Shown in pieces: positions 8,751 to 57,549 of a DNA stretch of 64,000 nucleotides. Under the pieces are notes generated by a model, which saw only the letters and a program-made list of their open reading frames with translations, was not told the DNA's origin and ran no database searches. The stretch lies in IMG/VR virus record IMGVR_UViG_3300032246_002986, positions 1 to 64,000 of that record. One strand, 5' to 3'. Position 1 is the first letter of the stretch, and each line of letters begins with the position of its first letter. Made by a program: the position numbers and the translations under genes. The stretch comes from a virus.

Positions 8751-8781
8751 AAATTATAATTTGATGATGGAGAAACTAAAA

Positions 8782-9909: not shown

Positions 9910-9946
9910 TGCCCCCCGGCCCTCCATCATCAAAAATGGGGGGCAT
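9909..9946 (+). other. GC-rich hairpin after the MoxR-type gene
   Basis: A perfect 9-bp inverted repeat, ATGCCCCCC (9909-9917) with GGGGGGCAT (9938-9946), encloses a 20-base loop. It begins at the stop codon of the ATPase gene. No T-run follows, so it is not a standard intrinsic terminator; it may stabilise or process the mRNA, or pause polymerase. The remaining bases to 10006 hold nothing else I can identify. Confidence 0.5.
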
Positions 9947-10006
9947 AGGAAAGGGTCTGATCACAGCAGATCCAATTGGTAGGCGAGGCGGGGGCCGTAT
10001 CAATAC

Positions 10007-10034
10007 TTGACATATCAGATAGATATGCTATTAT
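10007..10034 (+). promoter_or_regulatory. Early-type promoter for the VWA/metallopeptidase gene
   Basis: TTGACA at 10007-10012 and TATTAT at 10029-10034, spacer 16 bp. Predicted start near 10041. The leader carries AGAGGGG at 10049-10055 ahead of the ATG at 10064. Confidence 0.7.
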
Positions 10035-10063
10035 GGTATTATGATGATAGAGGGGTCATAATT

Positions 10064-14775: not shown

Positions 14776-15841
14776 TGTACAAGAGCAATATGCAGATTGC
14801 AAAGCAGAAATAGATCACGCAGTGCAGGGCGTGATGGCTGGTGGTCAATTCTTCCAGGCAGACTACAACGTTCAGTTGGCAAACATCATCAGCAACAGAT
14901 ATGGATATGCCAATGTGCAGTTGACGAGCAGTTGCACAGCAGCACTACACGCCAGCTTGCTAGCACTAAAACTGCCTGCTAACAGCAACGTAGCTGTGCC
15001 TGCTCTCACATATGTGGCTACAGCACAGGCAGTGATAGCTGCTGGTCACAATCCGGTGTTCATAGACGTGGATAAACATTGGTTGATGGATGTGAACGAT
15101 CTGTACTGGGCTATGTACAGAGAACATAAGATAGCCGCTGTGATAGCTGTGGACTTGTACGGACAGGGCCCTGACATAGAAAAGATAGCGGCCCTGTGTC
15201 GCGATCGTGGCGCCAAACTGATAATAGACGCTGCTCAAAGTTTCGGTCTGCACAGCAAAAAATATAATCAATTGGCAGCAGATGCCATATGTCTCAGTTT
15301 CAATCCCCTGAAAAACCTGGGTGGTATGGGCGGCGGTGCTATTGTCAGCACCCAGCTGGATCCTGTGTTGCTCAGAGCCATATGCCACGAGGGAAAAACC
15401 AGCAGTGGCCCAGCAGGGCAAGCTGAATATCACGGATTAAATTACCGTATGGACAGCGTACAGGCTGCTATGTTGACAGCAAAGTTGCCCTACTATGACC
15501 GTATGAAACAACGTAAATTCGACATCTGTGAACGCTATTACGCAGAGTTTGCAGGGCTTGTGGAAATGCCAGACAGAGCTGACAGCGGGCATCAACATTA
15601 CATCTTTGCTATGGCACCTGACAATGCAGACACAGTGCGACAGAGCCTCAGCAATGCTGGTATAGGCACAAGCAGCCATTATCAGAGACCGCTCACGAGC
15701 GAACCAGCGTTCAGCTGGTATTACAGGACTTGTCCCAAAGCAGATAGATTGGAAGGCCGTATAATCAGCTTGCCAGCTCACTGGCATCTGAGTGATTCAG
15801 ATGTGGACACAGTGGTCAAAGTGGTTAAATCTGCGCTGTGA
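14759..15841 (+). CDS. DegT/DnrJ/EryC1-type PLP aminotransferase
   Basis: PLP-dependent aminotransferase acting on keto-sugar nucleotides. PLP lysine K185 in SFNPLKNLG, I-I-D157-A-A-Q160 binding the PLP ring, and a TSSCTAALH phosphate loop near 56-64. 360 aa, normal length. The ATG at 14759 is preferred over the TTG at 14750. Its last 64 bases overlap, tail to tail, the 3' end of the leftward repeat-containing gene, so the two operons converge with no room for a terminator between them. Confidence 0.88.
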   Translation: MINFYNVQEQYADCKAEIDHAVQGVMAGGQFFQADYNVQLANIISNRYGYANVQLTSSCTAALHASLLALKLPANSNVAVPALTYVATAQAVIAAGHNPVFIDVDKHWLMDVNDLYWAMYREHKIAAVIAVDLYGQGPDIEKIAALCRDRGAKLIIDAAQSFGLHSKKYNQLAADAICLSFNPLKNLGGMGGGAIVSTQLDPVLLRAICHEGKTSSGPAGQAEYHGLNYRMDSVQAAMLTAKLPYYDRMKQRKFDICERYYAEFAGLVEMPDRADSGHQHYIFAMAPDNADTVRQSLSNAGIGTSSHYQRPLTSEPAFSWYYRTCPKADRLEGRIISLPAHWHLSDSDVDTVVKVVKSAL

Positions 15842-18072
15842 CGCTGACTGAAATATTCATCTAACCATCGCCATTCCACGGTTTTCAGCAGTTCGTCGTG
15901 GTACACCAAGCTGCCATAATATTCTATGGCATCTGCTGCGCCCATCAACTGCCAATCTGCATCTGATCCCATGGCATTATGTTGCCACTGATGCAGGCGA
16001 TATTGGCTTTCGATGGTCATTTCACTTATATTGGCATCCAATAATTTGATCACTTCACGAAAAGCGGTACGCCAGCTGATAACCGGATCGGTCAACATTG
16101 TTTCGCTGACTACTTCAGGCACCACCGTGTGTTTTTGTGCCAGTGTTATATCCAACCCACCACGATTGTCCAACATCAGTCTCGCATTATAAGCGATGGG
16201 AGCCATATGCCCATATGTCAGTCCAGTGTTGAGATTACGATTGTGGAATATGTAGTGTTTGGGTTCCTGCCAATAGTCTGGTGTCCAGTTCATCTCGACC
16301 AGGCTGGGCAAAACCTGGCACTTGGCGAATACTGCTATGAACCAGGGCGTGGTGCTCATACTGCTTGCTGCCTTGTAAGCAGCCAATCTGCCATTTACAC
16401 CTGTGAGCAACTTGGCATCAGGACAGATGCTCAGTAACCGCTGGTAATTCGCATCAGCATCTGGTTCGCCATTGCTGATGAAGATAACATCTGTTTTTTC
16501 ATCTGGCGCACAGTATTGTTTTAACAGATATGGATATTGATATATTTCTGTGGCGCAGACACAGTCCCTGGGTACCAGACTGATGCTGTGGCTTTTATTG
16601 AGTGCCATCACTGGTCTTTTTTCCCACAGGCACACGATAGGTTGCTCAGGCACAGATAGACCGCTGGGCACGAACAGGCTATACAAAGCGTGATCGCGTT
16701 TGATCAATGCCTCAGATAGACTGTCATTGTCATATGATACCACTGGCCAGGGTTTACGTTTCACGCTGCTGTGATCGAAATTGAATTCCATCTTGTCGGG
16801 GTCGAAACTAGGCACGTGTATGAGGAACGTATCACCTTTCTCACAATCGCCACTGGGCCAACAATGCACCTGATGCCTCTGATCCAGGTCGGGCAACCAG
16901 TGGAAATCGAATCCAGTATAGTCACAACAGTCTGCTATGATCCACAGCCATTCCTGTTCAGCTTTGTTCACAGCATTACGGATGCTCTGCTGCATCGTGG
17001 TTATCAGTTTGACGTTATAATCTGCGGTGTGTGGTTGCAGGCCCGTGTCCAGGTTACACACATTGGTATGGTGCTGTAATTGTTGCTGGGTATGGTAATA
17101 TTTGTACCCGGCGAAATCTGAGATGGCGTCCTGGTGTATCAGCCAGGTATAACTCAACTGTTGTTTGTCTCTGAGAGCGAAGCAATGGATGTATCTGGTG
17201 TCCCAGGCATCTGGTAACCAATCGAACGCTGCATCATCATACTGTATGCGTCGGTCTGCTATCCAGGTCCACTCCCTGCCTTGTGCTAATTCACAGGCAG
17301 CGTGGTAATCAGGCTTCTGTTTGCTGTGATCCTGCCAATATAACACAGGTGTCACATCGGCTTTGAATCTCAGATCGCTTTTACGGTATATGGTATGGTC
17401 CAGGCCGTCCCTGTTTACTAGCCTGGTATAACTGAGGCTTTCTGTGCCAGCTAGGCAGAACGCCTGTGTGCTGTACTGATCCCAGGCATCTGGTAACCAA
17501 CTCCAATCCCAACCAGTGTAGTCCACACGGTTATCAGCCAGCCAGGCCCATCGGACATCTTCAGGTATGGTGTCAGTGTCATAATAGATGGGCGTGTATT
17601 TCAGGCGCAGATCGCTTTTATGGTATTTCTTTATCTTGCTACCACGTGCCAGCCTGGTATAGCTCAGCTGCTGTGTGCCGGCCATTGCGAATTCGTGATC
17701 CTGATCCCAATCATAGATGCTGGGGAACCAAAGGAAATCGAATCCTTCATAACTGACTTCCTGATCAGTGTGCCATTGCCATAAGCCAGATGCCGCTCTT
17801 CTGACCGGTATCAGTGTATCATAAAAATGTTCGCCACTGCTGTCAGCTGTCAGCAACCAAGTGGTATAACACTCTGGATTGTTGTGGCTGGGCCAGGCGT
17901 GATTGAACTTGGTTTGATGCCTGTGTGGTATGAATCTTAGATCGAAATTGGTGTAATCTACGGCACGATGTAGCAACCACACAAACTCCGTGTTGGCTGC
18001 TGCTAATGCACTGGCTTTTAATTGTTGTATATCGGTACAATCGTCATAATCGTACCAGTAGATGTCAAACAT
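15778..18072 (-). CDS. Large repeat protein with degenerate glycosyltransferase-like C-terminus (764 aa)
   Basis: Last gene of the leftward operon. Residues about 30-420 hold five related units (near 30-75, 98-145, 175-220, 268-313, 375-420) with a core W-x-W-I/L-A-D-x-R-x-D-Y-T-G-F-D-x-x-W-L-P-D and a trailing L-S-Y-T-x-L strand. Residues about 510-680 match the GT-like protein at 27867-28799 (an F-I-S-N-G-E-P-D-A-D-A-N-Y segment against F-L-S-Y-D-E-P-D-A-D-E-N-F). Where that protein has the metal motif D-G-D, this one has F-A-K-C near residue 580, so catalysis by this domain is doubtful. The repeats may bind sugar or protein. Function unknown; the repeat and the GT relation are read directly. 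Confidence 0.75.
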   Translation of the reverse strand: MFDIYWYDYDDCTDIQQLKASALAAANTEFVWLLHRAVDYTNFDLRFIPHRHQTKFNHAWPSHNNPECYTTWLLTADSSGEHFYDTLIPVRRAASGLWQWHTDQEVSYEGFDFLWFPSIYDWDQDHEFAMAGTQQLSYTRLARGSKIKKYHKSDLRLKYTPIYYDTDTIPEDVRWAWLADNRVDYTGWDWSWLPDAWDQYSTQAFCLAGTESLSYTRLVNRDGLDHTIYRKSDLRFKADVTPVLYWQDHSKQKPDYHAACELAQGREWTWIADRRIQYDDAAFDWLPDAWDTRYIHCFALRDKQQLSYTWLIHQDAISDFAGYKYYHTQQQLQHHTNVCNLDTGLQPHTADYNVKLITTMQQSIRNAVNKAEQEWLWIIADCCDYTGFDFHWLPDLDQRHQVHCWPSGDCEKGDTFLIHVPSFDPDKMEFNFDHSSVKRKPWPVVSYDNDSLSEALIKRDHALYSLFVPSGLSVPEQPIVCLWEKRPVMALNKSHSISLVPRDCVCATEIYQYPYLLKQYCAPDEKTDVIFISNGEPDADANYQRLLSICPDAKLLTGVNGRLAAYKAASSMSTTPWFIAVFAKCQVLPSLVEMNWTPDYWQEPKHYIFHNRNLNTGLTYGHMAPIAYNARLMLDNRGGLDITLAQKHTVVPEVVSETMLTDPVISWRTAFREVIKLLDANISEMTIESQYRLHQWQHNAMGSDADWQLMGAADAIEYYGSLVYHDELLKTVEWRWLDEYFSQRHSADLTTLTTVSTSESLRCQ
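16813..17985 (-). repeat. Five imperfect protein repeats within the 764-aa gene
   Basis: Five tandem copies of a unit of about 70-105 residues, sharing the W-x-W...D-Y-x-G-F-D-x-x-W-L-P-D core and a later S-Y-T strand. At DNA level parts remain near-identical: CCCAGGCATCTGGTAACCA occurs in two neighbouring copies (around 17203 and 17484), showing relatively recent duplication. Confidence 0.75.
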
Positions 18073-19156
18073 GACTCTGATAACCTGGCATCAAGTATGC
18101 TATCTGACGCTGTTCATAGTCTGCATCAGCCCAGTTATAATCGTATACAGCCACATCTGTGCCCACTTGCAGGCTATAGATGTCAAGATGACGGCTCATG
18201 GTATTCCAGATGCTTTCCACGTCGGTTGTACCGAAACTACGTTTAAAATCTATCCGGCCTATTTCCAGATAACCAAGGCTCAATTCCGGGTCAGCAGGAT
18301 CATATCCCTGGCGTTCCAACCAGATGTTGAAATCATCTATTTCCTGCGTATGCCAGGGTTGATTGCCATAAGTTATGTCACGTCCCCATTCGATGTCGAA
18401 CTCACCGCTGTAGTATTGCAGGTGCGTGATGGCATCGCAAGTGGCTGCATCTATATCTGGTGCGCCTTCGTCTCTGAACACTTCCATAAGTGTCTTGCCT
18501 ATCTGTGTCCAGTGCATATACACGTGGCCAAACTTGCGATCGAAACCGTTGGCAGCAAATCCTTTACGATGTTCTCGATTGAGTTTATATCTGCGAGCAT
18601 TCAGGAATGTGGTTATCTGGCTGGGCCTGACCCACTCGGGTGTGTAATGTGCTTTACGCAGGCTCAGACATAATGTCTCTATTTCGTGACACAGATTGTT
18701 CAGTTGTCTGATGCTGTACTTGGTTGCAGCATCTACTTTCTTGTAGTAATCACTGAGATTTTCCACAGTGCCTTGCAGATGCTCAAAATGATTGTGTATG
18801 AGATTCATAATATCATGGTTGGGTCCACCACCGCGCTCACCAGGAATATTAACATCAGTAAAAGGCACCATCACTTGATCCGGAGCGATCAGATCTATTT
18901 GCGGATAATCTGGTATACCTGTATTGATCTGCTGGATATGTCTGTTCAATTGTTCACACAAGTATGATAGATCACGCTGTGTCCTGGGCCAACCGTGCCA
19001 GCAGTAATTCTTTTCCAGATGGCTATTTTTCTGTATTTCTTGTTGCAAGGCACACAACCAGTCTGCTGCCAGTTCTGTGCCATTGCCATTGATATGTATG
19101 GGTAATAATTCCAAGGGAAACAGTGGATTTCTAACCGTCATTATTAAATCATTCAT
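18065..19156 (-). CDS. Unknown protein of the radical-SAM/glycosyltransferase operon (363 aa)
   Basis: Overlaps both neighbours by 8 bases and has GGAG before its ATG. No enzyme motif recognised. It is rich in Trp, His and Tyr, with a polar N-terminal domain (LELLPIHINGNG at about 16-27), PGERGGGPNHDIMN near 105-118, a long helical segment (about 120-175), and a C-terminal region with GYLEIGRIDFKRSFGT and DIYSLQVGTDVAVYDYNW. No signal or membrane segment. Placed between the radical-SAM genes and the repeat protein, it is a candidate substrate, scaffold or a new enzyme of this system. Confidence 0.6.
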   Translation of the reverse strand: MNDLIMTVRNPLFPLELLPIHINGNGTELAADWLCALQQEIQKNSHLEKNYCWHGWPRTQRDLSYLCEQLNRHIQQINTGIPDYPQIDLIAPDQVMVPFTDVNIPGERGGGPNHDIMNLIHNHFEHLQGTVENLSDYYKKVDAATKYSIRQLNNLCHEIETLCLSLRKAHYTPEWVRPSQITTFLNARRYKLNREHRKGFAANGFDRKFGHVYMHWTQIGKTLMEVFRDEGAPDIDAATCDAITHLQYYSGEFDIEWGRDITYGNQPWHTQEIDDFNIWLERQGYDPADPELSLGYLEIGRIDFKRSFGTTDVESIWNTMSRHLDIYSLQVGTDVAVYDYNWADADYEQRQIAYLMPGYQSHV

Positions 19157-20434
19157 CGATGCTTCTCCACCAGTCTTGAGCTGGCTTGTATGCTGATAAT
19201 ATACTATCCATAGTCAGATTGCAAGTTCTTATTTGCTCTAATTTCTGGATATGTGCTTTGCCTCGGCGAGCAGCCTGCTGATACTCATCTGGCCACTGCT
19301 CTGCGAATGTTGGTCTGGTTTTTAGATGCTGTAACACTTCCACGATGCTGCGATTACGATCAGATATTTCCGATATTATCTGATCTACCCAGGGTTCCAG
19401 GATGTGTCTGGGTAATGCCAGTGGGCTCATCATTATGTCTGGTGTGAAGGCGAATACAACCTTGCTCAATATGCCAATATCAAGATCAGCACCAAGAGCC
19501 ACAATACCGGCAATATCGGCAAGGCCAGGTAGAGTAAGAGTATGATCAAGACGAATTTGAGCAGGTCGTCGTTGGTGTTTAATGCCCTCTCTAATATTAC
19601 GAACAAAAGTATCATAATCAAGACCAGTTCTAACATATTCGCCTATGGCTCCTGTTGCGTCCAGACTGGCACATATCTCCCAGTGTGGAAAATTATCCAG
19701 CAGTTGATAAAGGTTACCCTTCTTGTCGTTTATATAGCTGAGGTTGGTGTTGTACCTGATGCGAACCTGATCAGCATATCCCAGCTCTACGATACGATGC
19801 ATGAATTCCCAGTGTTCTTCATACAGCAGTGGTTCTCCACCCACCCAGTATATTTCTCTAACTGATTTATTTTCGATGGCGTTGCGGAATTCTGGTATCA
19901 CAGTATCGCGAACAAAGTGTCTGATCTTGTGACGATTTTCTGGTCGCATCCAATGGTTTTTGGGATTGGCCAGATCCACCATATTGTTCTTTTGAACTTC
20001 TATCTCCCATTTGCTGCTGAGCATATCACCACACATACGGCAACTGAAGTTGCAAACGTTACTGTAACGATAGTCCCAGCTTATGGGGCTCAGACTGGTG
20101 GTGCCGTCGGCTGCGGTATGGTTAAGGATATCATCTCGCAGGTGACCGAACAGGTGTCCGAAATAATCGCGGTAAACACTAGTGTTGAGAAGTTTTTTAT
20201 CGCACACTTGACATTCGTCAGGTACTTGGCCACTGAGCCATTTGGTACGTACCTGTCTCACGTGCTCGCTGTTCCACCATTGATCCAATGCCAGCGGACG
20301 GAATTCTCCGTCACCGCCTGCCGTGTCTATGTATTGACGAAAATTTTGGGCAGGTTCTCTGCTCGCACAACATAGACGGCGTTCTCCTTGAGGACTGATG
20401 TAAGTGTGTGTCCAGGGTGCGACACAAAAATCAT
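19149..20434 (-). CDS. Radical-SAM protein 1, with apparent frameshift near its start
   Basis: Core C-N-F-S-C-R-M-C (Cx3Cx2C) and V-G-G-E-P, so a [4Fe-4S]/SAM enzyme. The uninterrupted frame has no good start: its first candidate is a TTG at 20288, which cuts off a conserved N-terminal F-C-V-A-P-W...L-C-C cluster that is readable upstream. The ATG at 20434, in an ATGA overlap with the preceding stop, is one frame off; a single extra T in the TTTTT run at 20426-20430, or a -1 slip there, would give M-I-F-C-V-A-P-W and a protein of about 428 aa like its neighbours. A D-E-C-Q-V-C pair completes the N-terminal cluster motif. Substrate unknown. Confidence 0.78.
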
Positions 20435-21678
20435 TTGCAGAGATGACCGTAATCCTTTTCTAACCAGGGAAATATTTGCCGCCAATCGGTATTACGACGC
20501 CGATCTATTTCATTTAAAAATATCAATAATTTTCTTATCTCATCCAGATTCTGGTTGTTGCTGTATATTTCCTTTATCAGACCAACAAAATAATCTTTTT
20601 GTCCTAGATAATTGATTTTATCAAATTTAACCAAGCTGCGATTTAAATCTTTGCTGAAATATTTTCCAAAGATGTTGGGAGCCAGATAGGATGGTTTAAC
20701 GATGGGCATAAACCAAAAATAAACAGGATTTATTTTGTTCCAGGTGTTGATCTTTTCTATAAGATCAGGTAATGTTTTCAAACCGATGTTGGTCAAAGCA
20801 GCATTGACAGTCACAGTGATTGATTTCTGTTGCAAGATGTAAACGAAATTTTCTTCCCACTGTTTCAGATCCAGACCAGTGCGGATGTATTCTGCTTCAG
20901 GTCCCCAGCAATCCAAACTGCAGGTTATCTGTAGGCTGCCTATCTGCTTATCGGTTATCAATTGATTGAATTTATCTATATACTTCTGCAACTTCCATTT
21001 GCTGGTTTTCAAATTAGTGAAAATGACTATTTTTATTTCTGGGTTGGAGTGTTTGCGGAAAAATTCCAAACACTCGTCCATCTCTTTCTGGAAAAATGGT
21101 TCTCCACCCAATATCTGCAATATCTTTATGTGCTGGTAATTTTTTTCCAGATATATCCATAACTGTTGTTTCAATTGATCATAATTTTTACCGTTGGCCA
21201 TGTCATTACTTTTGACTATTTCACTGTCTATGCGGATACTGCCGAATTTTTTCAATTCCTGTTCCCATACACTGCTGTAATAGGGCCCACAATAGATGCA
21301 ACTCATGTTACAGATATTATTGAAATATATTTCCAAGGTAGTGGGTGTGACGTTTGTAGCCAGGGGATTTTCTGATAATTCATGGGGAGTGTGTTCTCCT
21401 GAAAAATCTTGTTTGATGACTCGCTCACTTACACCCCCGGCCTGTTCGATATCTCGACAGTACTCACAACCATTTCCGGGCCATTGGCCCTGTAACATAG
21501 CTTCTCTATCTCTTATCTTTACAGGTAAATTATGAAAATCCTGGAAATTTTCCACAGTAAGGTCTGTCTGCTTGCAACGATGACAACTACTGGTGGTCTC
21601 CCTGTGCAAGAACACCGTGCTCCAGTTCCATTTTAGCCTGCAGGCAGTGGCGGTTTTGATGGGAAATTCTGACGTCAT
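20431..21678 (-). CDS. Radical-SAM protein 2 (415 aa)
   Basis: C123-x3-C127-x2-C130 (CNMSCIYC) for the SAM-bound cluster and L-G-G-E-P for SAM binding. Upstream of it lies a second cysteine set (C13-R-L-K-W, S-C32-H-R-C35, G-C71-E-Y-C74), arranged as in proteins 6 and 7, so it may carry an auxiliary Fe-S cluster in an N-terminal twitch-like domain. More AT-rich and Lys/Asn-rich than proteins 4-7. ATGA overlap with protein 3's stop; the overlap at its own stop leads into protein 1. Substrate unknown. Confidence 0.85.
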   Translation of the reverse strand: MTSEFPIKTATACRLKWNWSTVFLHRETTSSCHRCKQTDLTVENFQDFHNLPVKIRDREAMLQGQWPGNGCEYCRDIEQAGGVSERVIKQDFSGEHTPHELSENPLATNVTPTTLEIYFNNICNMSCIYCGPYYSSVWEQELKKFGSIRIDSEIVKSNDMANGKNYDQLKQQLWIYLEKNYQHIKILQILGGEPFFQKEMDECLEFFRKHSNPEIKIVIFTNLKTSKWKLQKYIDKFNQLITDKQIGSLQITCSLDCWGPEAEYIRTGLDLKQWEENFVYILQQKSITVTVNAALTNIGLKTLPDLIEKINTWNKINPVYFWFMPIVKPSYLAPNIFGKYFSKDLNRSLVKFDKINYLGQKDYFVGLIKEIYSNNQNLDEIRKLLIFLNEIDRRRNTDWRQIFPWLEKDYGHLCK

Positions 21679-22715
21679 AGGTTGTTCACCGGTAAGTTGG
21701 CAACGTTTTTCAGATAATCGATATTATCTAAATATTGTTGGTGTCTGGGATGTGCGGGTTTCCATACTGCTTGATCGTCGAAATTAGGATAGGTGTTCCA
21801 GTCCAGGATTTTAGTAAAGTTGATCTTCCACCTGGGATATTCAGACATAAATTGTTTTGCCAACAATAGGTCATCCAGATTAAGAGCTTGCACTACATAG
21901 GAAAAATTTACCTGTAGCTCAGGTTTGGTATCCCTGAGCCAATGTAGATTTTCCAGGAGATTTTTATAATTTCCACCACGTCTGACCTGCTCATATACAG
22001 GTTTACTGAAAGCGTCGATGGATATTTCCACCTGTTTGATTTTATCTTCCATATGTGACAATTTGTGCCATCTGTCTTTCATCAACAGTCCATTGGTCCG
22101 CAATTTTATCTCACTCTCTGGATGATTCAACTGGAATTTAGTCACAAAGTCAATGTACAGATTGCTGGCAAATAAATCGCCATCGCCAAATAAGGTAAGT
22201 TTCAAAGGATGCTGGTATACATTGATCAACTGCGCCAGCTTGTCCAGTATTCGTTGTTTCTTGTCATATTCAGGACCGGATTTGTAGTACACGAATTCAT
22301 TACGACAACTGGGACAGGTCAGATTGCAACTGCGATCCACTGCTATCTCGATGATATAGGGTCTAGCTACTGTGGGCAATGATGATAAACCAGTGCGATT
22401 GCCTTTTAAAAAACTACAGATATTCAAAGCACAGTATCTGTAACTGCCATCCGCTACGCCGGATTGGATTTCTTTGGCTCTGGGACTGGCCATTATTTCT
22501 TCCAATGAGCCAAAGTCTTGCAGATTGCCCACGCTTATGGGCAACCATTCGCTGCAACCACATACAAAGCAGCGTCCCTGATGATCTATGTTTAGGCTAT
22601 TCCAGGGATATTCACATATGCAATCTAATTTTAAATCTTTATCGAAATCCATTTTGTGTACGCGATACTTGAATCGCATATCTGGATCAAGATCTTTGAA
22701 AGTTATCTTACTCAT
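21675..22715 (-). CDS. Radical-SAM protein 3, divergent (346 aa)
   Basis: Cluster motif C130-x3-C134-x2-C137 (CNLTCPSC), but the usual G-G-E-P is replaced by G-D-G-D-L. The N-terminal cysteine set (C32-I-C34-E-Y-P-W, C49-F-V-C52-G-C54, Y-C95-x4-C100) is richer than in the other six and resembles a SPASM-type cluster domain placed before the core. It lacks the extra C-terminal region of its neighbours. Probably a different reaction or substrate. Overlaps protein 4 by 8 bases. Confidence 0.83.
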   Translation of the reverse strand: MSKITFKDLDPDMRFKYRVHKMDFDKDLKLDCICEYPWNSLNIDHQGRCFVCGCSEWLPISVGNLQDFGSLEEIMASPRAKEIQSGVADGSYRYCALNICSFLKGNRTGLSSLPTVARPYIIEIAVDRSCNLTCPSCRNEFVYYKSGPEYDKKQRILDKLAQLINVYQHPLKLTLFGDGDLFASNLYIDFVTKFQLNHPESEIKLRTNGLLMKDRWHKLSHMEDKIKQVEISIDAFSKPVYEQVRRGGNYKNLLENLHWLRDTKPELQVNFSYVVQALNLDDLLLAKQFMSEYPRWKINFTKILDWNTYPNFDDQAVWKPAHPRHQQYLDNIDYLKNVANLPVNNL

Positions 22716-23856
22716 AACTTATCGCCCGTGCCATCTCAGGATGATGATCACTGTATTTTTGTTTACGTTGGCGATCGCTCTGTTTCAAGACCCTGACTAA
22801 TTCCCTGGTGCGATCAGGATAGGCCATCTGCATGAATTGTATCACTCCGGCGATATCTTCTTTATAAGGGCCCTGATACTCTGCAAATTTATCTGAGACT
22901 ATTTTTTTAGCACTGGCATTAAGAGCTTTTACACTGAAATGATCTGCGCTGTGTAACACGTTGAAATAGACGAAATCGAAATGCTGTTGTTGTATCCAAG
23001 GTGCTATCTGGTCCAGATAATAGACATTCAGTGCGTTCACAGTGATGCACAGTTGCAGAACGATGTTGCTGCTGCCATCTCTGAGCTGACGAAACTTATC
23101 CAAGTTAGTTTGAGTATCTGCCCATTTAGCACCATAACGCTGGTACTCGAATCGCTCATACATATCATCCACGCTCACCGCTATCTCCACTTTCTTGAAG
23201 TGCGGCCATAATTCCAGGCCTTTTTCCGGCACTATGGTGGTGTTGGTGTTGTAATGTATCTCTATATTCTTGCTGTGACCATTCTGCACTGCCAATTCCA
23301 GTAATTCGAAATGCTCGTCAATCAGGAAAGGTTCGCCACCTGTGAACTCGAAGTATTTGACCTTGTGCAGGTTGTCTCGGAGATCCGACCAGAAATCCCG
23401 GCTGTCCCTGGGCCAGTTGCCGCTCTTGAGGTTTGCTCGTGCAGTGGTATTTTTTGGGCTTATGGCTATCTCTTCGGCTGCCCACTTGCTGCTGCTGAAA
23501 CTGCCACAGATGCGACATTTGAGATTACATATATTGCCCAATTTAAGATCTATGAATTGCAGTTGGTTGACACCTGCATCTATACTGACGCTGCGTAGCT
23601 TGTTGATGCTGTGCATACGCTTGCTGGTCCTGCCAGCTGCTTCTTCATCCCAGCAACGCACACAGTTTTCTGGTTTTTCATTCTGTAGGAATTGCTGCCT
23701 CATCTGGTTCATATAATCGCTGTGAAAAGCATCAGTGAGGGTATGGCTACGCAGATCTATGTCAGGTATGGTCTCTGTGCTGAGACAACAAACCTTGCAC
23801 TTGCCCATGGGATCTGCTTCTATGCTGGTAAACGGTAGTGGACAAAAAGTGTTCAT
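22708..23856 (-). CDS. Radical-SAM protein 4 (382 aa)
   Basis: N-terminal F-C-P-L-P-F and K-C20-K-V-C23-C24 followed by N-C65-V-R-C68, then the core C110-x3-C114-x2-C117 (CNLKCRIC) and T-G-G-E-P. Same layout as proteins 1 and 5. The N-terminus starts directly with M-N-T-F-C, a useful template for the restored start of protein 1. ATGA overlap with the stop of protein 5. Substrate unknown. Confidence 0.86.
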   Translation of the reverse strand: MNTFCPLPFTSIEADPMGKCKVCCLSTETIPDIDLRSHTLTDAFHSDYMNQMRQQFLQNEKPENCVRCWDEEAAGRTSKRMHSINKLRSVSIDAGVNQLQFIDLKLGNICNLKCRICGSFSSSKWAAEEIAISPKNTTARANLKSGNWPRDSRDFWSDLRDNLHKVKYFEFTGGEPFLIDEHFELLELAVQNGHSKNIEIHYNTNTTIVPEKGLELWPHFKKVEIAVSVDDMYERFEYQRYGAKWADTQTNLDKFRQLRDGSSNIVLQLCITVNALNVYYLDQIAPWIQQQHFDFVYFNVLHSADHFSVKALNASAKKIVSDKFAEYQGPYKEDIAGVIQFMQMAYPDRTRELVRVLKQSDRQRKQKYSDHHPEMARAISYE

Positions 23857-25133
23857 AGCAGGTCCTTGAATTCAGGTATGACATCCAGGATGTTTTCTCC
23901 ACGTATCTGATCCAACTGATTGGTTTTTTGCCAAAACTTGGCCAGCAGATGTGATTTGTCCTCTGCGTTCATGAATTTGATAGCACTCTCGAATCCCACG
24001 GTGGCCCGGGTCAGTGTGTCGTGTGGACGCAACCATTCCAGATGTTCGGTGTATAAATCGGTTATCTGTTGTTTGGATTTCACAGGCAGCACATCCAATC
24101 GATACCTGTCAGGATTTTGTAGGATGTTGATATTAAGATCCTGGTGCTTGATGAAACCTTTGCTGACCCAGTCTTTGTGGAACTCTGGCAGATGCCAGGC
24201 GTTCATTATACTGAGCGTGGGACTGATGTAGAAATCCACACCAGGACATATCTTGAGCATCTGTTCTCTGTTGGATTCCACATTGGCCCACTTGGTGCCC
24301 TTGCGTATGTATTCTGCTGTATCACCCATAGCATCCAGGCTGGCACCCACGCTGACACTGCGAAACTCTCGCCACAATTCAAGCACATTGGTCTTCTTGT
24401 AGACCAGTTCGCTGAAATTGGTGTTGTAGATCAGCCTGACATTGGTCCTGCCTCTGGCTATCAATTCCTTTAACAGGCGATAATGTTCTTCCATTATCAG
24501 TGGTTCGCCTCCAGCAAAATACACCTGCTCCAGATTATCGATCTGGGGTTCCAACTGATTCCATATGTCATCGGGATCGCGTCCTGCGAAGTTGATGCGT
24601 TTGTTTTTGCTTTTCCATTCTTCTCCGGCCAGCTTGACCTGATCATCATACCAGTTACTACTGAAGATATGTCCACAGCTACGGCAACGCAGGTTACACA
24701 GGTTACTGAATCTGATGTCCCAGTAGATCAATCTCATCTGTTCCACGGTACCGTCGCTCAGCGTGTCATCCGTCAGAGCGATGTGATGTCCGAAATGCTT
24801 GTTGGCGCTCAGTCGCATACTGAAGAAACCCGACTGTTCCTGTTCATAACATCTGGTACAGCCAGCAACAGGTTCGCCATTCAACATCTTCAGTCTGACA
24901 TCACGCAACGCCGTGTCATTCCATATTTCTTTTATGGTTTTATCACGGGTATTGCCTATGACATCGGCATCGTTGGTGTTACAACAGGGATATGCTTCTC
25001 CAGTGGGAAAAGCGTGGATGTGTATCCAGGGGTACATACAAAAACTGTCGTTGTTGTATATGAGATCCTTGTGTTTTTCAGAGAAATTCTTGACAGGTAC
25101 GAGTGGGTCTTTGCTGTTATAGTTGTACTTCAT
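23853..25133 (-). CDS. Radical-SAM protein 5 (426 aa)
   Basis: N-terminal extension of about 30 residues, then F-C32-M-Y-P-W, P-C50-C51 and G-C92-T-R-C95, and the core C146-x3-C150-x2-C153 (CNLRCRSC) with A-G-G-E-P. Closest in layout to proteins 1 and 4. The N-terminal cysteines probably hold an auxiliary cluster, an arrangement known for N-terminal-twitch radical-SAM proteins. Overlaps protein 6 by 17 bases. Confidence 0.86.
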   Translation of the reverse strand: MKYNYNSKDPLVPVKNFSEKHKDLIYNNDSFCMYPWIHIHAFPTGEAYPCCNTNDADVIGNTRDKTIKEIWNDTALRDVRLKMLNGEPVAGCTRCYEQEQSGFFSMRLSANKHFGHHIALTDDTLSDGTVEQMRLIYWDIRFSNLCNLRCRSCGHIFSSNWYDDQVKLAGEEWKSKNKRINFAGRDPDDIWNQLEPQIDNLEQVYFAGGEPLIMEEHYRLLKELIARGRTNVRLIYNTNFSELVYKKTNVLELWREFRSVSVGASLDAMGDTAEYIRKGTKWANVESNREQMLKICPGVDFYISPTLSIMNAWHLPEFHKDWVSKGFIKHQDLNINILQNPDRYRLDVLPVKSKQQITDLYTEHLEWLRPHDTLTRATVGFESAIKFMNAEDKSHLLAKFWQKTNQLDQIRGENILDVIPEFKDLL

Positions 25134-26472
25134 GATACCATTCTGTTAATAGTGGAAAGGCTGACATAAAATCCTTGCCACGCCTGCGATCATACTGTAT
25201 GATGAATGCACGTAGATCTAGGTCTAATGTCATACCATCACTGGAATTGTTATGGGGTGTGGTAGCTGTATTTAAGTATTCGATCAGGCGCTTTACGTGT
25301 TCTCGCTCCATCTCGTGCAATAGATCGCTATCAGCATAAGTGTCCAAGAACAGTCGCAACCTATCACAGCACTGTTGTTTGATAGTATCAGGCATTACCA
25401 CGGGAGATTGGAAGCTGGGAAATCTCAGGATGTTTAATGTGAATGTGGGTTTGCTTTTGCCATACTGCCTTTTGAAATCCATACACTGTTCCAGGAAATC
25501 TGGCAGTGTGGGTAAACATAATCCGTTGATCGTACACATCATATGGAAGGCTTTTACGTTGCCGTGTGTGAGTAATTTGTGTATATTGTCGATATAATCA
25601 GTGTACACCAGCCCATCGCGTATCCATTCGGCCGCTGAACCTGTGGCCTCGCAGCTGGTGTATATCTCCATATTGTCTATGTCGTGGGTGGCCTGTATCA
25701 ACCTATCGATCAGATCGGGTTTAGCACCCAGGTTGCTGTTGACAGCCAGCCTGACATCGCTCTTGTTTTGCCGGAACCAATCGAACAATCTCCAGATATG
25801 CGGACTCATCAAGGGCTCGCCACCTGTGATACGCAACTCACGTAGCGAGTTGTGTAGATCCGTGTCCCACCAACGGAAAAATGCTTCCACATATGGATTG
25901 GTTTCATCCAAAGCATACAACTGGCTGGCACTGTGCTCGTGAGTATAATGATTGCGACCGTCGCTGGTCAGATTGGTATAAGCACCATTCTGTTTGATAT
26001 CTTTGACCCAGGTTGTGCTGAAAGCTGGATTACAATAACTGCAAGCGAAATTACAGGTCCTGTCGAAAGCTATCTCGAGTGTACGCAGATTGAAGTCGCT
26101 GTGAGGATCGGCGAAAGCATCCGATAGTTCTTTTTCACTATAGATCATACTTTTATAAGGACGATCACTGATGGCATTAGGACTATTGTCTTCGATGCGC
26201 CAGCAGTATTCACATCCTGCAGGACGCTGCCCTTGTGCCATCATCAATCGTTCTGTTTTCTTTTGGACGGTATTGTGCAAGGCACGTGGATTGATGGCGA
26301 CTTGCTCTGCACTTACTTTATGCGGCAGAGGGTGATGGCAGCTGGTGGTCTGTCCGGATCCCAACCACACTGTAGCATTATACCATTTGGCACCACAGAA
26401 GCTGGCGCTTTTTGTATCTAATACTCTTTGTTTGTATTGTTGGAAAGATTCGTTGGATTTTTTGCTACGCAT
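25117..26472 (-). CDS. Radical-SAM protein 6 (451 aa)
   Basis: N-terminal F-C26-G-A-K-W, T-S-C45-H-H-P and G-C87-E-Y-C90, then the core C140-x3-C144-x2-C147 (CNFACSYC) and T-G-G-E-P. Closely parallels protein 7 along its length, including an S-D-R-x-Y segment after the C-x2-C pair, which points to tandem duplication. Overlaps both neighbours. Substrate unknown. Confidence 0.86.
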   Translation of the reverse strand: MRSKKSNESFQQYKQRVLDTKSASFCGAKWYNATVWLGSGQTTSCHHPLPHKVSAEQVAINPRALHNTVQKKTERLMMAQGQRPAGCEYCWRIEDNSPNAISDRPYKSMIYSEKELSDAFADPHSDFNLRTLEIAFDRTCNFACSYCNPAFSTTWVKDIKQNGAYTNLTSDGRNHYTHEHSASQLYALDETNPYVEAFFRWWDTDLHNSLRELRITGGEPLMSPHIWRLFDWFRQNKSDVRLAVNSNLGAKPDLIDRLIQATHDIDNMEIYTSCEATGSAAEWIRDGLVYTDYIDNIHKLLTHGNVKAFHMMCTINGLCLPTLPDFLEQCMDFKRQYGKSKPTFTLNILRFPSFQSPVVMPDTIKQQCCDRLRLFLDTYADSDLLHEMEREHVKRLIEYLNTATTPHNNSSDGMTLDLDLRAFIIQYDRRRGKDFMSAFPLLTEWYHEVQL

Positions 26473-27892
26473 TGTCTGCCCTGTACTTACACTCGTCCCA
26501 CCACTCTGTCATTTCTGGGAATGTATTTAAAAAGTTTGTACCACGTCTATTATCGTGTTCTGTAAAAAATCGGTAAAAGTCTGCTTTGACCACAGGATCG
26601 TCCCGGCGATTGGCTCGCATCCAATCCACAACACGTTGTAGCCGCTGTATCTCATAATCTTTGAACCCTTGGAAACGCCGGGTTTCCGTTTCAGGAGTCT
26701 GTCTCATCCAGTCTGTGATCTGTTGCAGCTTCCAAGCATAGGCTTCGGGCATGATGTCCAGGCACTGCCAAGTTGGGCTGCGTAGTATAGGGGTATCGAA
26801 CCACACACGTTGATAATCAGTGCTGAATTCCTGTCTGAGTTTCAGGATGGTATCCAATAAATTTTGTAAACCACCTATGCTGAGATTGTTCATTGTTATG
26901 ATGAATGTTATGCTGCTGCGTTTGTCCACATCAGATAAGAACTGGCCCACGTTGGTTATCATATGGTCATAATCCAGTCCGTGCCTGATATAATCTGCCT
27001 GCTCGTATGCGCTGTCCACACTGACAAACTGCATGAAGTGTTCCACAGCACCAGTGTCACATATCTTCTGCACCGTATTGATATACTTGAGCATCAGATG
27101 ATCTTCTACACTGAAGTTGCTGGTGACATTCAGATGCAGATCAGGTTTGGGATTTGCTATCACATAGTCCAACACACGAAAGGTGTTTTTGTCCATAAGC
27201 GGTTCACCACCGGTCATACGGAAATGTTTCAGTTTAGGATACAGATCCGGCCACCAACGCCAGAACGCTTCTACATAAGGATTATGGTCACGAACAGGAA
27301 TAGGCTTACGATCACTAGCAAAATATTGTGGATCGTTATGTCTGTTGGACGTGGGGTACGCTCCATACTCTTTGATCTCCTTGGCCCAAGTGCTGCTGAA
27401 CTGGGGGCTGCAATAACTGCAACGAAGATTGCAAGCACTGTTGAAATTCACTTCCACGTAACTGGGGATCACATCCCAGGTCAGTGGGTCTTTTGTGGTT
27501 ATGTCTGCATAGGCTTCTGCTGCCCAGGGTTCACCACTGCGGTAATGCCTGTCGCTCAGGTTACCCGTGGCTTCCACTTTCCAGCAATAACTGCAACCCT
27601 GCGGTTTCTGGCCTTGGAGCATCTGTACTCGTTCGGATTTTTTATGACTGGTGTTATGTAGCGCACTGGGGTTATCTTGTAAATCATCTGCATTGATCCT
27701 GTGTAATGGTGGATGATAACAACTGTTGGTGTGTCCAGTTGTCAGGTGTAGGCTGGTCTGTTGCCATTTGGCCAAGCACAAGGCTGGTCCGAGCTGGGCT
27801 TGCATCTGCTCAGCACTGCTCATGAACTCGCTGTTGAGTGTGCCGTCGGTATTTACTGTCACTTTATCACCGGAATTTTCTAGCTGCGTCAC
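26465..27892 (-). CDS. Radical-SAM protein 7 (475 aa, GTG start)
   Basis: GTG start at 27892, with AGGAG nine bases upstream, inside the end of the previous gene. N-terminal C39-L-A-K-W, N-S-C58-Y-H-P, G-C100-S-Y-C103, and the core C154-x3-C158-x2-C161 (CNLRCSYC) with T-G-G-E-P. Paralogue of protein 6. First radical-SAM gene reached by transcription from the 31 kb promoter. Confidence 0.86.
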   Translation of the reverse strand: MTQLENSGDKVTVNTDGTLNSEFMSSAEQMQAQLGPALCLAKWQQTSLHLTTGHTNSCYHPPLHRINADDLQDNPSALHNTSHKKSERVQMLQGQKPQGCSYCWKVEATGNLSDRHYRSGEPWAAEAYADITTKDPLTWDVIPSYVEVNFNSACNLRCSYCSPQFSSTWAKEIKEYGAYPTSNRHNDPQYFASDRKPIPVRDHNPYVEAFWRWWPDLYPKLKHFRMTGGEPLMDKNTFRVLDYVIANPKPDLHLNVTSNFSVEDHLMLKYINTVQKICDTGAVEHFMQFVSVDSAYEQADYIRHGLDYDHMITNVGQFLSDVDKRSSITFIITMNNLSIGGLQNLLDTILKLRQEFSTDYQRVWFDTPILRSPTWQCLDIMPEAYAWKLQQITDWMRQTPETETRRFQGFKDYEIQRLQRVVDWMRANRRDDPVVKADFYRFFTEHDNRRGTNFLNTFPEMTEWWDECKYRADNA

Positions 27893-28799
27893 GCAGGAAA
27901 CTCCTATACAAGTGTTCTGGCATCATTATATCTATATTCTCATAGGGTTGTTGGTTGCGTTTGAACCAGGCGCTTTGTTCTGGTGTGAGTTCCACGATAT
28001 CCAATGCTAATCTTTTGGTCAATACCTCTGTGTGGAAATCTTGATTCTCTTGTGTCCAGCAATCATCGTACAGTTGATCCAGTTTATGGAAATCACGCAC
28101 CTCAGTATAGTCCCAGTCTGGCTCGAACATGACTTTATAGGCACCGTGGCGAGCTCCTGCGATAGCCCAGTTGCCGTTCTCCACATCTGCGCCCACGCTA
28201 CACCATATGGCCAGATTATCACGATTACCCACCCAGGTTTCAGATTCGAAATCTTCTGGATCTATGCGCCTGCCACGAGCCAGACACAGCTTGACGCCTT
28301 CGCGGAATCCAGCTCGCCAGGCCTGGTGTGATGTGGCATTGGGATATGTGGTGCTCCACACATCGTGCATCGCCCAGTAATCGTCTGCAAAACAAAACTC
28401 CACTAGGGTCTCATCGGTACCGTCCGTGGCTTCGTGTGTTTTCATATTCTGCACGAATGTCTTGGTCCAGCTACTGATGCCACCATTGCCATAACACAGG
28501 CCGTTCACGATGTTGCGAGCCCGCCAGCGGAATACTTTGCTATCGTTGGTATGATCTATGCGTAGCGTCTGATTGAAAAATTCCGGATCGGGACGATTGT
28601 CGCCGTCTATCAAGATGAAGCGTTCTGTACTGCTAGCTGCGGCTGCTGCCTTGTGTGCAGCATCTGAACCTTCCACACCGTGTACACGTTTGGCCCAGGG
28701 TGCGATGCTCTTTAGATATATGAAATTTTCATCAGCATCAGGTTCATCATAGCTGAGGAATACACAATCCAGATCCGAAACGTCAACTAACTCGACCAT
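27867..28799 (-). CDS. GT-A-type glycosyltransferase-like protein (310 aa)
   Basis: Start at 28799 is chosen because AAGGATGGGG precedes it; the longer frame to 28880 lies within the neighbouring gene. Features of a GT2-like nucleotide-sugar fold: strand C-V-F-L-S-Y, an A-H-K-A-A-A-A-A helix, and a D-x-D metal motif I-D65-G-D67-N. Shares its catalytic-domain segment with the C-terminus of the 764-aa protein, but keeps the metal motif. Donor and acceptor unknown. Overlaps neighbours by 17 and 26 bases. Confidence 0.7.
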   Translation of the reverse strand: MVELVDVSDLDCVFLSYDEPDADENFIYLKSIAPWAKRVHGVEGSDAAHKAAAAASSTERFILIDGDNRPDPEFFNQTLRIDHTNDSKVFRWRARNIVNGLCYGNGGISSWTKTFVQNMKTHEATDGTDETLVEFCFADDYWAMHDVWSTTYPNATSHQAWRAGFREGVKLCLARGRRIDPEDFESETWVGNRDNLAIWCSVGADVENGNWAIAGARHGAYKVMFEPDWDYTEVRDFHKLDQLYDDCWTQENQDFHTEVLTKRLALDIVELTPEQSAWFKRNQQPYENIDIMMPEHLYRSFLRDAARKFR

Positions 28800-29139
28800 A
28801 ACCCCATCCTTGAGCGCCTGGATAATCAGCTGACACTGCAAACTGATTATCGTTATGTAAAGTATAGTACACATTGCCACCTGTTTGCAATCTAATAGTT
28901 GCTGTCGGTCGCATATCCACCGGTTTTCCGTCTATGACTTTGTAATCAGCAGCTCTGTTGAATATGAAACTATTGTCGACCACGACAAAAACTCCTGGCA
29001 GGTCCTCATAGGTTACCACTGTGCCAATTAGAGTGTGGGGATCATAGTATAATTTATAAACCAATTTAACACTTGGTTTGGTCTGTTGTTCAACCAATCG
29101 GAAAACTTCAGCCCAGTACTCTTCGAAATTCATACTCAT
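28783..29139 (-). CDS. Small protein of the glycosyltransferase operon, unknown function (118 aa)
   Basis: Tightly overlapped on both sides. Soluble, mostly beta (VKLVYKLYYD, TVVTYEDLPGVFVVVDNSFIF, TIRLQTGGNVYYTL) with a helical start. No motif recognised. The position inside the operon argues that it takes part in the same process. Confidence 0.6.
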   Translation of the reverse strand: MSMNFEEYWAEVFRLVEQQTKPSVKLVYKLYYDPHTLIGTVVTYEDLPGVFVVVDNSFIFNRAADYKVIDGKPVDMRPTATIRLQTGGNVYYTLHNDNQFAVSADYPGAQGWGYGRVS

Positions 29140-29935
29140 ATCTATCTATCAATTCATCAGTAGCGAATGTTTTCTGTTGGTAATGCAGGGGCCTGTGCTG
29201 TTTATAACCGCCGATAACAGGGCTGTGATCATCTTGTATCTGCCAATCCAGCTGTTCTGTCCACATCTGTTTGCCAGGTAGATTTTGCACCTCTGGTTTC
29301 ATATGCACAAAACCAAATTTGGTATCTGCTGTGTGAATCTGTAAGATATTGTAAGCCAAGGCATATACTTCGTCCGTCCTGGCCGTATCATATCTACAGT
29401 TGATCAGGTAATGATCCCTGTACCAATTCCAGTCCAATACGATCTGGTTACAAGTATCGTAAAATTGTTTTGCTGTGAGATCATATTCGAAATAAGTCCA
29501 AGCACTATAGATATCTGGCAACATATTATCATCGAAAAGTTTACGTTGGCTGCGATCTGTCGCAATACGATGATCATATGTGTAAACTGTATGAGTAAAA
29601 TTTAAAGCATTTTGTCCATATATGTTCCACATATGGCTGTAGTCGCTGGTAAAAAGCATATCTGCTTCTGTCTTGATAGTGCGTTTATATGGACTCAGAT
29701 TGAAAACATTCGTTTCGTGCATTATGGGATGCAACACGTGGCTCACGACGATTATTTTATCGAACGTGTTATTCTGTTTTTCTGTTATGCATTCACTTGT
29801 TTCGGTATCCACTATGACACTGAAGTTTGCATTTTTTTTCTGCGTGAGTTTACAACTCAGCGCCTGCAAGTAAGCCATCCGCAGATAATCATTGCTGTCT
29901 GTATTGGTCGCCACACACAAAAACCCTGCACTCAT
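29108..29935 (-). CDS. GT8-like glycosyltransferase, variant metal motif (275 aa)
   Basis: N-terminal strand GFLCVATNTD, V-I-V-D-T at 40-44 and the T-I-K-T-E90-A-D92-M-L-F segment in the place of D-x-D of GT8-type enzymes, preceded by S-P-Y-K-R. Resembles the next protein (ATNTD/AFNTD start and -PY-RT- before the acid motif), so the two are paralogues. E-A-D may still bind metal. Ends inside the 118-aa gene. Confidence 0.65.
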   Translation of the reverse strand: MSAGFLCVATNTDSNDYLRMAYLQALSCKLTQKKNANFSVIVDTETSECITEKQNNTFDKIIVVSHVLHPIMHETNVFNLSPYKRTIKTEADMLFTSDYSHMWNIYGQNALNFTHTVYTYDHRIATDRSQRKLFDDNMLPDIYSAWTYFEYDLTAKQFYDTCNQIVLDWNWYRDHYLINCRYDTARTDEVYALAYNILQIHTADTKFGFVHMKPEVQNLPGKQMWTEQLDWQIQDDHSPVIGGYKQHRPLHYQQKTFATDELIDRYEYEFRRVLG

Positions 29936-30687
29936 TTGCTGCCCTTGTTCATCAGATGCAGATCGGTATCTTTGAATCTGTTGCGATATAATTTGTCGCC
30001 TATACTATACTCATAGGTCAAACTATTGTTTTTGAATTTATCATAATTTACCCTGCTGTCCATATTGATCAGCGGATAATTGGCAAATCCATAATCTGCC
30101 ATACCATAACCTCCAGCTATATGGCAGGCAATGGAAAATATGTAATCGTTTCTCACAGGCGTGGGATAAAATTTATACAGAGCGGAGTAATAGTCGTAAT
30201 GTTGCTGTACCATTTTAGCACATTCGAATACATTATGAGCAATGTTGCCTTTATTGAATAACATCACAGTGGCCCAACACAGGGGTATGGCTGTTTTAGC
30301 CAGTTGCTCTTTACGTATTGTTCCACTGATAGGGTCATATAATTCGGTAGTAATGACAAAGTCAGTGTTGCCGTTTATATGATTAACCAGTGTATCACTA
30401 CAGATGAAATAATCGCTGTCTATGACAAGTGTGCGATCATATGGTGTAAGATCGTAAGCCTGTGTTCTGGCTAGATTGAACCATTGTTTTTTTAATCTGC
30501 GATTATGATCTGGAGCATCTATCACTATGTTATCGTGTTCCGATAACACTTCGCGATCGCTTATGATAGTCACCGGTAAATCCAGATATCTGTTGACCCG
30601 TTCGCCAGCTAATACAGCGTCAGATATGTAATCTATATCATCTGTATTAAAAGCAAATATGCAGCAACCTTTAGAGTTGTTGGGCAT
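29932..30687 (-). CDS. GT8-like glycosyltransferase (251 aa)
   Basis: Strand CCIFAFNTDD, then V-T-I-I-S-D (39-44), and T-P-Y-D-R-T-L-V-I-D90-S-D92-Y-F, a classical D-x-D motif of glycogenin/GT8-type enzymes that bind a UDP-sugar and Mn. A terminal H-L-M-N-K-G is near the usual second His. Donor and acceptor unknown. ATGA overlap with the following gene. Confidence 0.75.
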   Translation of the reverse strand: MPNNSKGCCIFAFNTDDIDYISDAVLAGERVNRYLDLPVTIISDREVLSEHDNIVIDAPDHNRRLKKQWFNLARTQAYDLTPYDRTLVIDSDYFICSDTLVNHINGNTDFVITTELYDPISGTIRKEQLAKTAIPLCWATVMLFNKGNIAHNVFECAKMVQQHYDYYSALYKFYPTPVRNDYIFSIACHIAGGYGMADYGFANYPLINMDSRVNYDKFKNNSLTYEYSIGDKLYRNRFKDTDLHLMNKGSK

Positions 30688-31003
30688 TTCTTACCTGTGT
30701 TTGTTCTTGGTATTGCTGTTGCCATTCGTTCATTACTTCTACATAACGTCGTTTAGCCAGCGTCAGTAGTTCCATCCTGTTAACCATAACTGGAGTGTCA
30801 TACATATCCAAGATTATCATTTCATCGTTCCAACCATCATCTGGCAGGAGATTCAGCAACACAAACAATTCCGTATTGACTGGAAACACACCATCGCGAT
30901 GTGTCACCGTTAATCTGCTGGTCATCAGAGTCTTGAGATTTTGTTTTGCCAGCAGACGGTCGTAGGTTGCACGGGCTTGATCACGTAATTGTTCTTGATT
31001 CAT
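30671..31003 (-). CDS. First gene of the leftward operon, unknown function (110 aa)
   Basis: Its ATG coincides with the predicted start of transcription, so the mRNA is probably leaderless, with no ribosome site. The helical N-terminus (EQLRDQARATYDRLL), a central beta part (LTVTHRDGVFPVNTELFVLL) and a long C-terminal helix rich in Gln and Glu recall small proteins found beside tail-fibre genes in large phages. It may be a fibre accessory or a member of the modification system; unresolved. Confidence 0.6.
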   Translation of the reverse strand: MNQEQLRDQARATYDRLLAKQNLKTLMTSRLTVTHRDGVFPVNTELFVLLNLLPDDGWNDEMIILDMYDTPVMVNRMELLTLAKRRYVEVMNEWQQQYQEQTQVRNAQQL

Positions 31004-31009
31004 CTTGTA

Positions 31010-31038
31010 ATTATAACAGATAGGTTTAATTTTGTCAA
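31010..31038 (-). promoter_or_regulatory. Perfect-consensus sigma-70 promoter for the leftward operon
   Basis: On the minus strand, TTGACA (31038-31033), a 17-bp spacer ending in TGT, then TATAAT (31015-31010). All 12 positions match consensus and the -10 is extended. It sits exactly between the stop of the virion gene at 31039 and the ATG at 31003, and the expected start base is that ATG's A. It should make the string of 13 overlapping genes an early, host-polymerase operon, unlike the late virion genes behind it. Confidence 0.85.
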
Positions 31039-57541: not shown

Positions 57542-57549
57542 TATTTATT
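57542..57549 (-). promoter_or_regulatory. Late-promoter-like octamer AATAAATA
   Basis: AATAAATA on the minus strand, 19 bases before the ATG at 57523, in the 48-base gap after the gp25-like gene. One mismatch to the GATAAATA form, same spacing. Confidence 0.5.

Follow-up and report, generated by a model that had tools for sequence, protein, structure and literature searches.

Background

Temperate phages carry gtrABC cassettes, whose glycosyltransferases change surface sugars and bring about serotype conversion; we know of no phage system that runs multi-step radical chemistry. This study concerns a string of genes for radical S-adenosylmethionine (SAM) enzymes and glycosyltransferase-like proteins in a 64,000-nucleotide stretch of viral DNA (the window), which is the first 64 kb of the 86,540-bp IMG/VR virus record IMGVR_UViG_3300032246_002986. 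The string is conserved in relatives as a cassette built around five radical SAM enzymes (R7, R6, R5, R4 and R1), and may serve to decorate a tail protein. The phage, a T4-like myovirus, encodes its baseplate wedge and hub proteins at 54-63 kb (minus strand); portal and head protease genes lie farther on.

The closest described arrangement is that of the pelagimyophages, for which radical SAM gene cassettes are mentioned, in two sentences, in the tail-fibre/host-recognition region (PMC7029224). As in the window, radical SAM and glycosyltransferase genes lie beside tail-fibre genes in T4-like aquatic phages; the five-enzyme order, the partner protein U18, the linkage to the virion-type protein S31 and the early promoter are not described there, the comparison being one of text only. 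A preliminary description of the window had stated that no such run was on record; this was nearly right, apart from that mention. A literature search for such runs, or for the family NF033640 to which six of the seven radical SAM enzymes in the window belong, found nothing beyond the same paper. NF033640 (N_Twi_rSAM) denotes proteins in which an N-terminal twitch-type cluster domain precedes the radical SAM domain; it is a family name without a function, and no citation of the accession was found in the literature search.

Other likenesses are partial. The Nol-like carbamoyltransferases of the cyanophages and pelagiphages S-SSM7, S-CAM8 and HTVC008M belong to the same family as a carbamoyltransferase found in related cassettes, but no relative of R5 or R7 was found in these phages, and the window's own clade lacks the carbamoyltransferase. 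Vibrio phages K566 and K567 have three annotated radical SAM genes and hypothetical genes in one run; however, these enzymes show about 23% identity and branch outside the core clades, and no tail-gene context was seen. Bdellovibrionota clusters (L047, L229-L232) bring relatives of R1, R4, R5, R6 and R7 together in one place, but have no transferase block, U18 or phage genes and adjoin housekeeping or sugar-nucleotide genes. In the Bacteriovoracaceae chromosome L047, relatives of all five core types adjoin rplU-rpmA-obgE-like genes. The other Bdellovibrionota have R1-R4 or R6-R1-R4-R6 sets, and the set in L229 adjoins a sugar nucleotidyltransferase, a choline-kinase-like protein and GDSL proteins. 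The bacterial neighbours of single R5-like genes showed no common partner.

Gene content of the cassette

Fourteen genes, one more than first counted, run leftward from 31003 to 15778 on the minus strand, and nearly all overlap, mostly by 4-32 bp. The first is the small gene u30 (30671-31003). It is followed by the glycosyltransferase-like genes GT30 (29932-30687) and GT29 (29108-29935), by u28 (28783-29139), which encodes a small protein with no assigned role, and by GT27 (27867-28799), which encodes a conserved transferase-like protein. Seven adjacent radical SAM genes (19149-27892) come next: R7 (26465-27892), R6 (25117-26472), R5 (23853-25133), R4 (22708-23856), R3 (21675-22715), R2 (20431-21678) and R1 (19149-20459). 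The string ends with U18 (18065-19156), the partner of the radical SAM block, and GTrep (15778-18072), whose product is a repeated, Trp/Tyr-rich protein of 764 amino acids (aa). Directly upstream of the cassette, on the same strand, S31 (31039-31995) encodes a Ser/Thr/Gly-rich virion-type protein.

Two gene models were corrected. GT27 had been called too long, at 27867-28880; a start near 28799 fits better because the leading 26 residues are unsupported (predicted local distance difference test score, pLDDT, below 50) and relatives are about 310 aa long. An apparent 142-bp gap before 19149 is not real, since the R1 frame is open to 20459 and encodes the N-terminal cysteine part. This frame has no ATG, GTG or TTG at its 20459 end, the first TTG being at 20288; the ATG of relatives is replaced in the window at the junction with the inserted gene R2 (20431). 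A frameshift was rejected as the cause of the gap, as the frame is open and a canonical start codon alone is absent.

Conservation of the cassette

An alignment of all seven radical SAM proteins was too divergent, so a pattern search built on it was dropped and single families were used as queries. R7 retrieved 31 loci from IMG/VR, and an R5-alignment query gave at least 80 additional loci among the matches listed. Gene-order counts are based on 110 viral loci, on contigs of up to 347 kb. The order R7-R6-R5-R4-R1 is complete in 83 of these, and in 8 more R1 and R4 are swapped; most of the rest are interrupted by contig ends. Among testable loci, R6 is present in 105/105, R1 in 86/86, R4 in 98/99 and R7 in 99/100. 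Between R4 and R1 the window has two inserted genes, R2 and R3, that are rare in other loci; most relatives have no R3. The view of the string as one conserved functional unit can thus be kept, but not with seven enzymes: the core is five, and R2 and R3 are optional extras.

The five-enzyme block has constant partners, namely S31, u30, u28, three glycosyltransferase-like proteins with DxD or ExD motifs, and U18. The consensus order is S31, u30, GT30, GT29, u28, GT27, R7, a 375-aa accessory family in some loci, R6, R5, R4, R1 and U18, then an O-carbamoyltransferase or GTrep. In 76 of 79 relatives, S31 is the gene immediately upstream of u30. Searches anchored on S31 and on U18 retained the best 80 loci each, which are those closest to the window, so their co-occurrence rates describe the window's kin rather than all homologues. 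With S31 as anchor and no radical SAM query, radical SAM genes were found in 54 of 56 loci with enough downstream sequence, and GT27 in 55. One exception (L290) has neither radical SAM genes nor GT27; the other (L260) keeps the transferase block without any radical SAM gene. With U18 as anchor, R1, R5 and R6 were found in 73 of 73 loci with enough upstream sequence.

This conservation of the gene string excludes a chance arrangement. The preliminary description had named a string that is not kept together in any related genome as evidence against a unit; the neighbourhood search found it kept together in relatives. The cassette belongs to a large family of uncultured T4-like aquatic phages, and at least about 600 stretches were matched in the collection searches. 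No isolate phage of the collection contains the unit, and searches of the isolates with GT27, S31 and GTrep were also empty.

Accessory genes vary greatly among loci and include GDSL, epimerase/dehydratase, AMP-binding, hexapeptide-transferase and APS-kinase families. This variation would suit a loose collection of radical SAM genes with unrelated roles at a recombination hotspot behind the tail fibres, as would the extra radical SAM genes found elsewhere in these genomes. The window's record has two: a QueE homologue (2868-3710) and an eighth N_Twi_rSAM gene at 77 kb (record positions 76974-78254, minus strand; L010:1453-2763; 245 bits), which lies beside head and portal genes. Large cassette phages have additional family members outside the cassette. 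A 347-kb record (L127) gave 21 matches over its whole length and a 156-kb record (L130) gave 19; among the matches listed, at least 13 and at least 14 N_Twi_rSAM genes, respectively, are above the cut-off. The five core enzymes, however, each remain recognisable, in the same order and with the same cysteines, even where the phages are very divergent, and one bacterial chromosome has relatives of each type in one place. A loose collection is therefore very unlikely.

Radical SAM enzymes

The preliminary description had called seven adjacent radical SAM genes from their Cx3Cx2C motifs and had proposed a profile search, which bears the call out. The curated cut-off of NCBIfam NF033640 is 170 bits; R1 (241), R2 (232), R4 (347), R5 (417), R6 (286) and R7 (324) exceed it. 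R3 fails with 58 bits but is above the cut-offs of the Pfam families Radical_SAM (PF04055, 42 bits) and SPASM (PF13186, 27 bits), and is best described as an accessory radical SAM/SPASM protein. All seven proteins contain CxxxCxxC and N-terminal auxiliary cysteines. The preliminary description had also named lack of a cluster-binding fold in the seven as evidence against its reading; no such result was obtained. R5 also exceeds the cut-off for SPASM, a domain with two auxiliary clusters (40 bits), R4 is below it (19.3 bits), and R1, R2, R6 and R7 have no match to PF13186. A sequence search of the PDB with R5 gave nothing useful.

Across the 87-101 sequences of each core family, the three SAM-cluster cysteines and the four auxiliary ones at the N-terminus are conserved almost without exception. 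Eight cysteines of R5 are invariant (101/101), and the cluster cysteines of R7 are found in at least 97 of 98 sequences. The SAM-binding motif GGEP occurs in every counted sequence of the five core families; in its place R3 reads GDGD. By their four invariant or nearly invariant N-terminal cysteines, R1, R4, R5, R6 and R7 fit a twitch auxiliary-cluster domain, and are predicted to bind a cluster there. In the tree, each viral core type falls to one side of a branch; support is weak for R6 (39) and R5 (63), fair for R1 (88) and strong for R7 and R4. Since each type is separate, the five are old paralogues rather than products of a recent tandem expansion. This agrees with the earlier suggestion of different radical SAM enzymes for different steps: they are several distinct, ancient enzymes and not recent duplicates.

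SPASM/twitch radical SAM enzymes act mostly on peptides. The seven enzymes might accordingly make a modified peptide, with u30, u28 or an unseen peptide as precursor; both u30 and u28 are small and lie within the unit, and one bacterial cluster has a PqqD-like protein (PF05402, 28.6 bits). However, u30 and u28 are variable from end to end, with no segment conserved as a core, and the phage cassette genes scanned include neither a peptide-recognition (PqqD) domain nor a protease or an exporter. A ribosomally synthesised and post-translationally modified peptide pathway, which had already been thought less likely because no precursor gene was visible, is improbable on this evidence. In the Bdellovibrionota locus L094, a PqqD domain is joined to a Peptidase_S74 domain near such radical SAM genes.

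Promoter and timing

A sigma-70 promoter (31010-31038, minus strand) lies immediately before u30. It consists of TTGACA and TATAAT with a 17-nt spacer (12/12 match) and an extended -10 element (TG), and 6 nt separate the end of its -10 box from the u30 start. The first cassette message probably begins at the u30 start codon and would be leaderless, judging from this spacing. The promoter is the sole perfect sigma-70 site in the window. Eight sites with at least 11 matches were found, against a mean of 1.25 in shuffled windows, and five of the eight lie near the left end, where genes run rightward. In relatives, a site with a score of at least 9, a 17-nt spacer and 5-7 nt to the start precedes u30 in 49 of 69 sequences, compared with 0-5 of 65-100 sequences for each of eleven other families.

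The tail genes have a different motif. A T4-type late-promoter-like sequence, NATAAATA, occurs at 57549, 38030, 34858, 33434 and 32022 (minus strand), 23-28 bp upstream of tail genes, and the late-type motif GATAAATA precedes S31. Between S31 and the sigma-70 promoter there is often a hairpin-like GGGCC...GGCCC followed by T-rich sequence. The conserved promoter at u30, together with the different motif at the tail genes, indicates that the cassette is transcribed as a separate unit of early type. Early-type expression had been proposed at the outset; the perfect promoter and its conserved placement bear this out. Late baseplate and tail genes precede the cassette on its strand; position therefore gave no hint of early timing, which is shown by the promoter alone. 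A late assignment based on that position was dropped after the promoter analysis.

Early expression and transferases would also fit hypermodification of phage DNA, in which the transferases and the carbamoyltransferase act on a modified base and radical SAM steps follow on the substituent. The window's record contains FolE, QueD and QueE homologues, which makes a 7-deazaguanine base possible. Several observations speak against such a role. The thymidylate-synthase/hydroxymethylase family (PF00303) is absent from 14 of 18 large cassette-bearing records, and the window's own enzyme of the thymidylate-synthase family has the canonical FNIASYA motif. A Tet/JBP search was empty, though its search control was also silent. 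The cassette is linked to a tail gene and not to replication genes. DNA modification is the least probable of the explanations considered here.

Transferase-like proteins, U18 and S31

The preliminary description had called four glycosyltransferase-like proteins. Sequence motifs, a weak fold match of GT27 and homology of the GTrep C-terminus to GT27 back this in part; Pfam support is missing for all four. Specifically, GT27, GT29, GT30, GTrep and the 375-aa accessory family have no Pfam family. DxD is nearly invariant in GT30 (D90, D92), which also has invariant H244 and K248, and in GT27, where the motif is DGDN. GT29, weakly related to GT30, has an invariant ExD (E90, D92) and invariant H211 and K213. 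The DGDN motif is lost in GTrep. The model of GT27 (pLDDT 77) matches GT-A transferases and sugar nucleotidyltransferases at weak significance (E about 1e-3, template modelling score 0.2-0.3), and GT27 is the only transferase-like protein with such a match. PDB sequence searches with GT27, GT30 and U18 gave nothing useful.

U18 is modelled with high scores (pLDDT 86, predicted template modelling score 0.84). A PDB fold search with this model found no match, and its BFVD matches are solely unnamed viral proteins, one of them from Agrobacterium phage Atu_ph07; the model suggests that U18 has a new fold. S31 has no PHROG match of its own, and its position among tail genes points to a role in the virion.

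Genes around the cassette are concerned with sugar tailoring. In the window, a DegT/DnrJ sugar aminotransferase (14750-15841, plus strand; PF01041, 210 bits) faces the cassette and is kept in the window's clade. It adjoins a gene for an NAD-dependent sugar epimerase/dehydratase-like protein (13876-14775, plus strand), so assigned from sequence and neighbourhood. An O-carbamoyltransferase (NodU/CmcH) is usual in relatives outside the window's clade (L018:19217-20707; PF02543, 113 bits; PF16861, 167 bits), but is absent from that clade and from the window's cassette. These three genes and the accessory sugar-tailoring families support the view of a sugar-modifying gene neighbourhood. In one related phage region (L039), radical SAM, transferase-like and SGNH-like genes alternate beside tail-fibre-like genes; the region also has a cytidylyltransferase-cupin fusion.

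Proposed function of the cassette

The favoured reading, to which we give a probability of about 0.4, is that the cassette is an assembly line in the cytoplasm by which a tail protein is glycosylated and remodelled through radical chemistry. Early in infection, the cassette would be transcribed separately from a host-type promoter, so that its enzymes would be ready once the late tail proteins appear. The transferase-like proteins would attach sugars to a Ser/Thr-rich tail protein in the cytoplasm, with S31 as the first candidate. The radical SAM enzymes, aided by U18, would then perform successive steps on those sugars or on the protein itself; candidate steps are dehydrogenation, epimerisation, deoxygenation and formation of C-C or C-S bonds. 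Decoration would be completed by the carbamoyltransferase or, in the window, by the DegT, epimerase and GTrep set. The decorated tail might alter receptor binding or protect the virion.

This reading is favoured because of the conserved gene order, the linkage to S31 and U18, the promoter, the soluble proteins, the sugar-tailoring neighbours, and the motifs and fold of the transferase-like proteins. The bacterial homologue cluster that adjoins sugar nucleotidyltransferase, kinase and GDSL genes also favours it. Four points weigh on the other side. The glycosyltransferase calls are without family support. S31 is weakly conserved in sequence, and is a candidate acceptor by position and composition. 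The transferase/S31 half and the radical SAM half are separable, since L260 keeps the former without the latter. Finally, a function directed at the host fits early expression equally well.

Such a function is the main rival. The cassette would remodel the precursor sugars from which the host builds its O-antigen or capsule, which would mask the receptor and block superinfection. The early-type promoter is consistent with this, as are the epimerase, aminotransferase, O-carbamoyltransferase and GDSL genes around the cassette and the sugar nucleotidyltransferase and kinase genes next to the bacterial cluster of the same enzymes. Pelagimyophage glycosyltransferases beside tail fibres have been interpreted likewise (PMC7029224). 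On the other hand, cassette proteins look soluble: a membrane-like stretch occurs in 5 of the 1476 cassette genes. Among these genes there was neither a flippase nor a polyprenyl-phosphate transferase nor an exporter, and the membrane flippase and lipid-carrier enzymes of gtrABC are likewise absent. The close coupling to a single virion-type protein, S31, also argues against a host-surface target. Remodelling of the host surface is less probable than decoration of the tail, though it deserves more weight than the other alternatives.

Other features of the record

Three further regions were noted. The tail region contains a single open frame of 4832 codons (39641-54139, minus strand), which is kept in relatives. 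Near the left end, the homologues of GTP cyclohydrolase I (1-396), a QueD-like protein of the 6-pyruvoyl-tetrahydropterin-synthase family (1117-1611) and QueE lie close together on the plus strand; this clustering suggests a 7-deazaguanine pathway. At 8761-11323 (plus strand), a MoxR-like AAA protein is followed by a DUF2201/VWA metallopeptidase-like protein. Beyond the window, at about 73.0-75.3 kb of the record (L009:9026-11292), there are TctC- and TctA-like genes of a tripartite tricarboxylate transporter (TctA, 186 bits).

Significance

Wide conservation, a strong promoter of the early type and the link to a single virion-type protein make it likely that the cassette matters for infection. 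We suggest, tentatively, that in aquatic T4-like and jumbo phages at least five radical SAM enzymes act one after another and, together with transferases and U18, give a virion protein a chemically new decoration; this would be a previously unknown system. Should radical steps on a virion protein be borne out, this would be a new kind of phage modification system. If tail decoration is the function, radical SAM chemistry would be added to virion modification; the five distinct, co-evolving enzymes would then also be a place to look for new radical reactions on sugars or proteins, with S31 as a concrete candidate for their acceptor.

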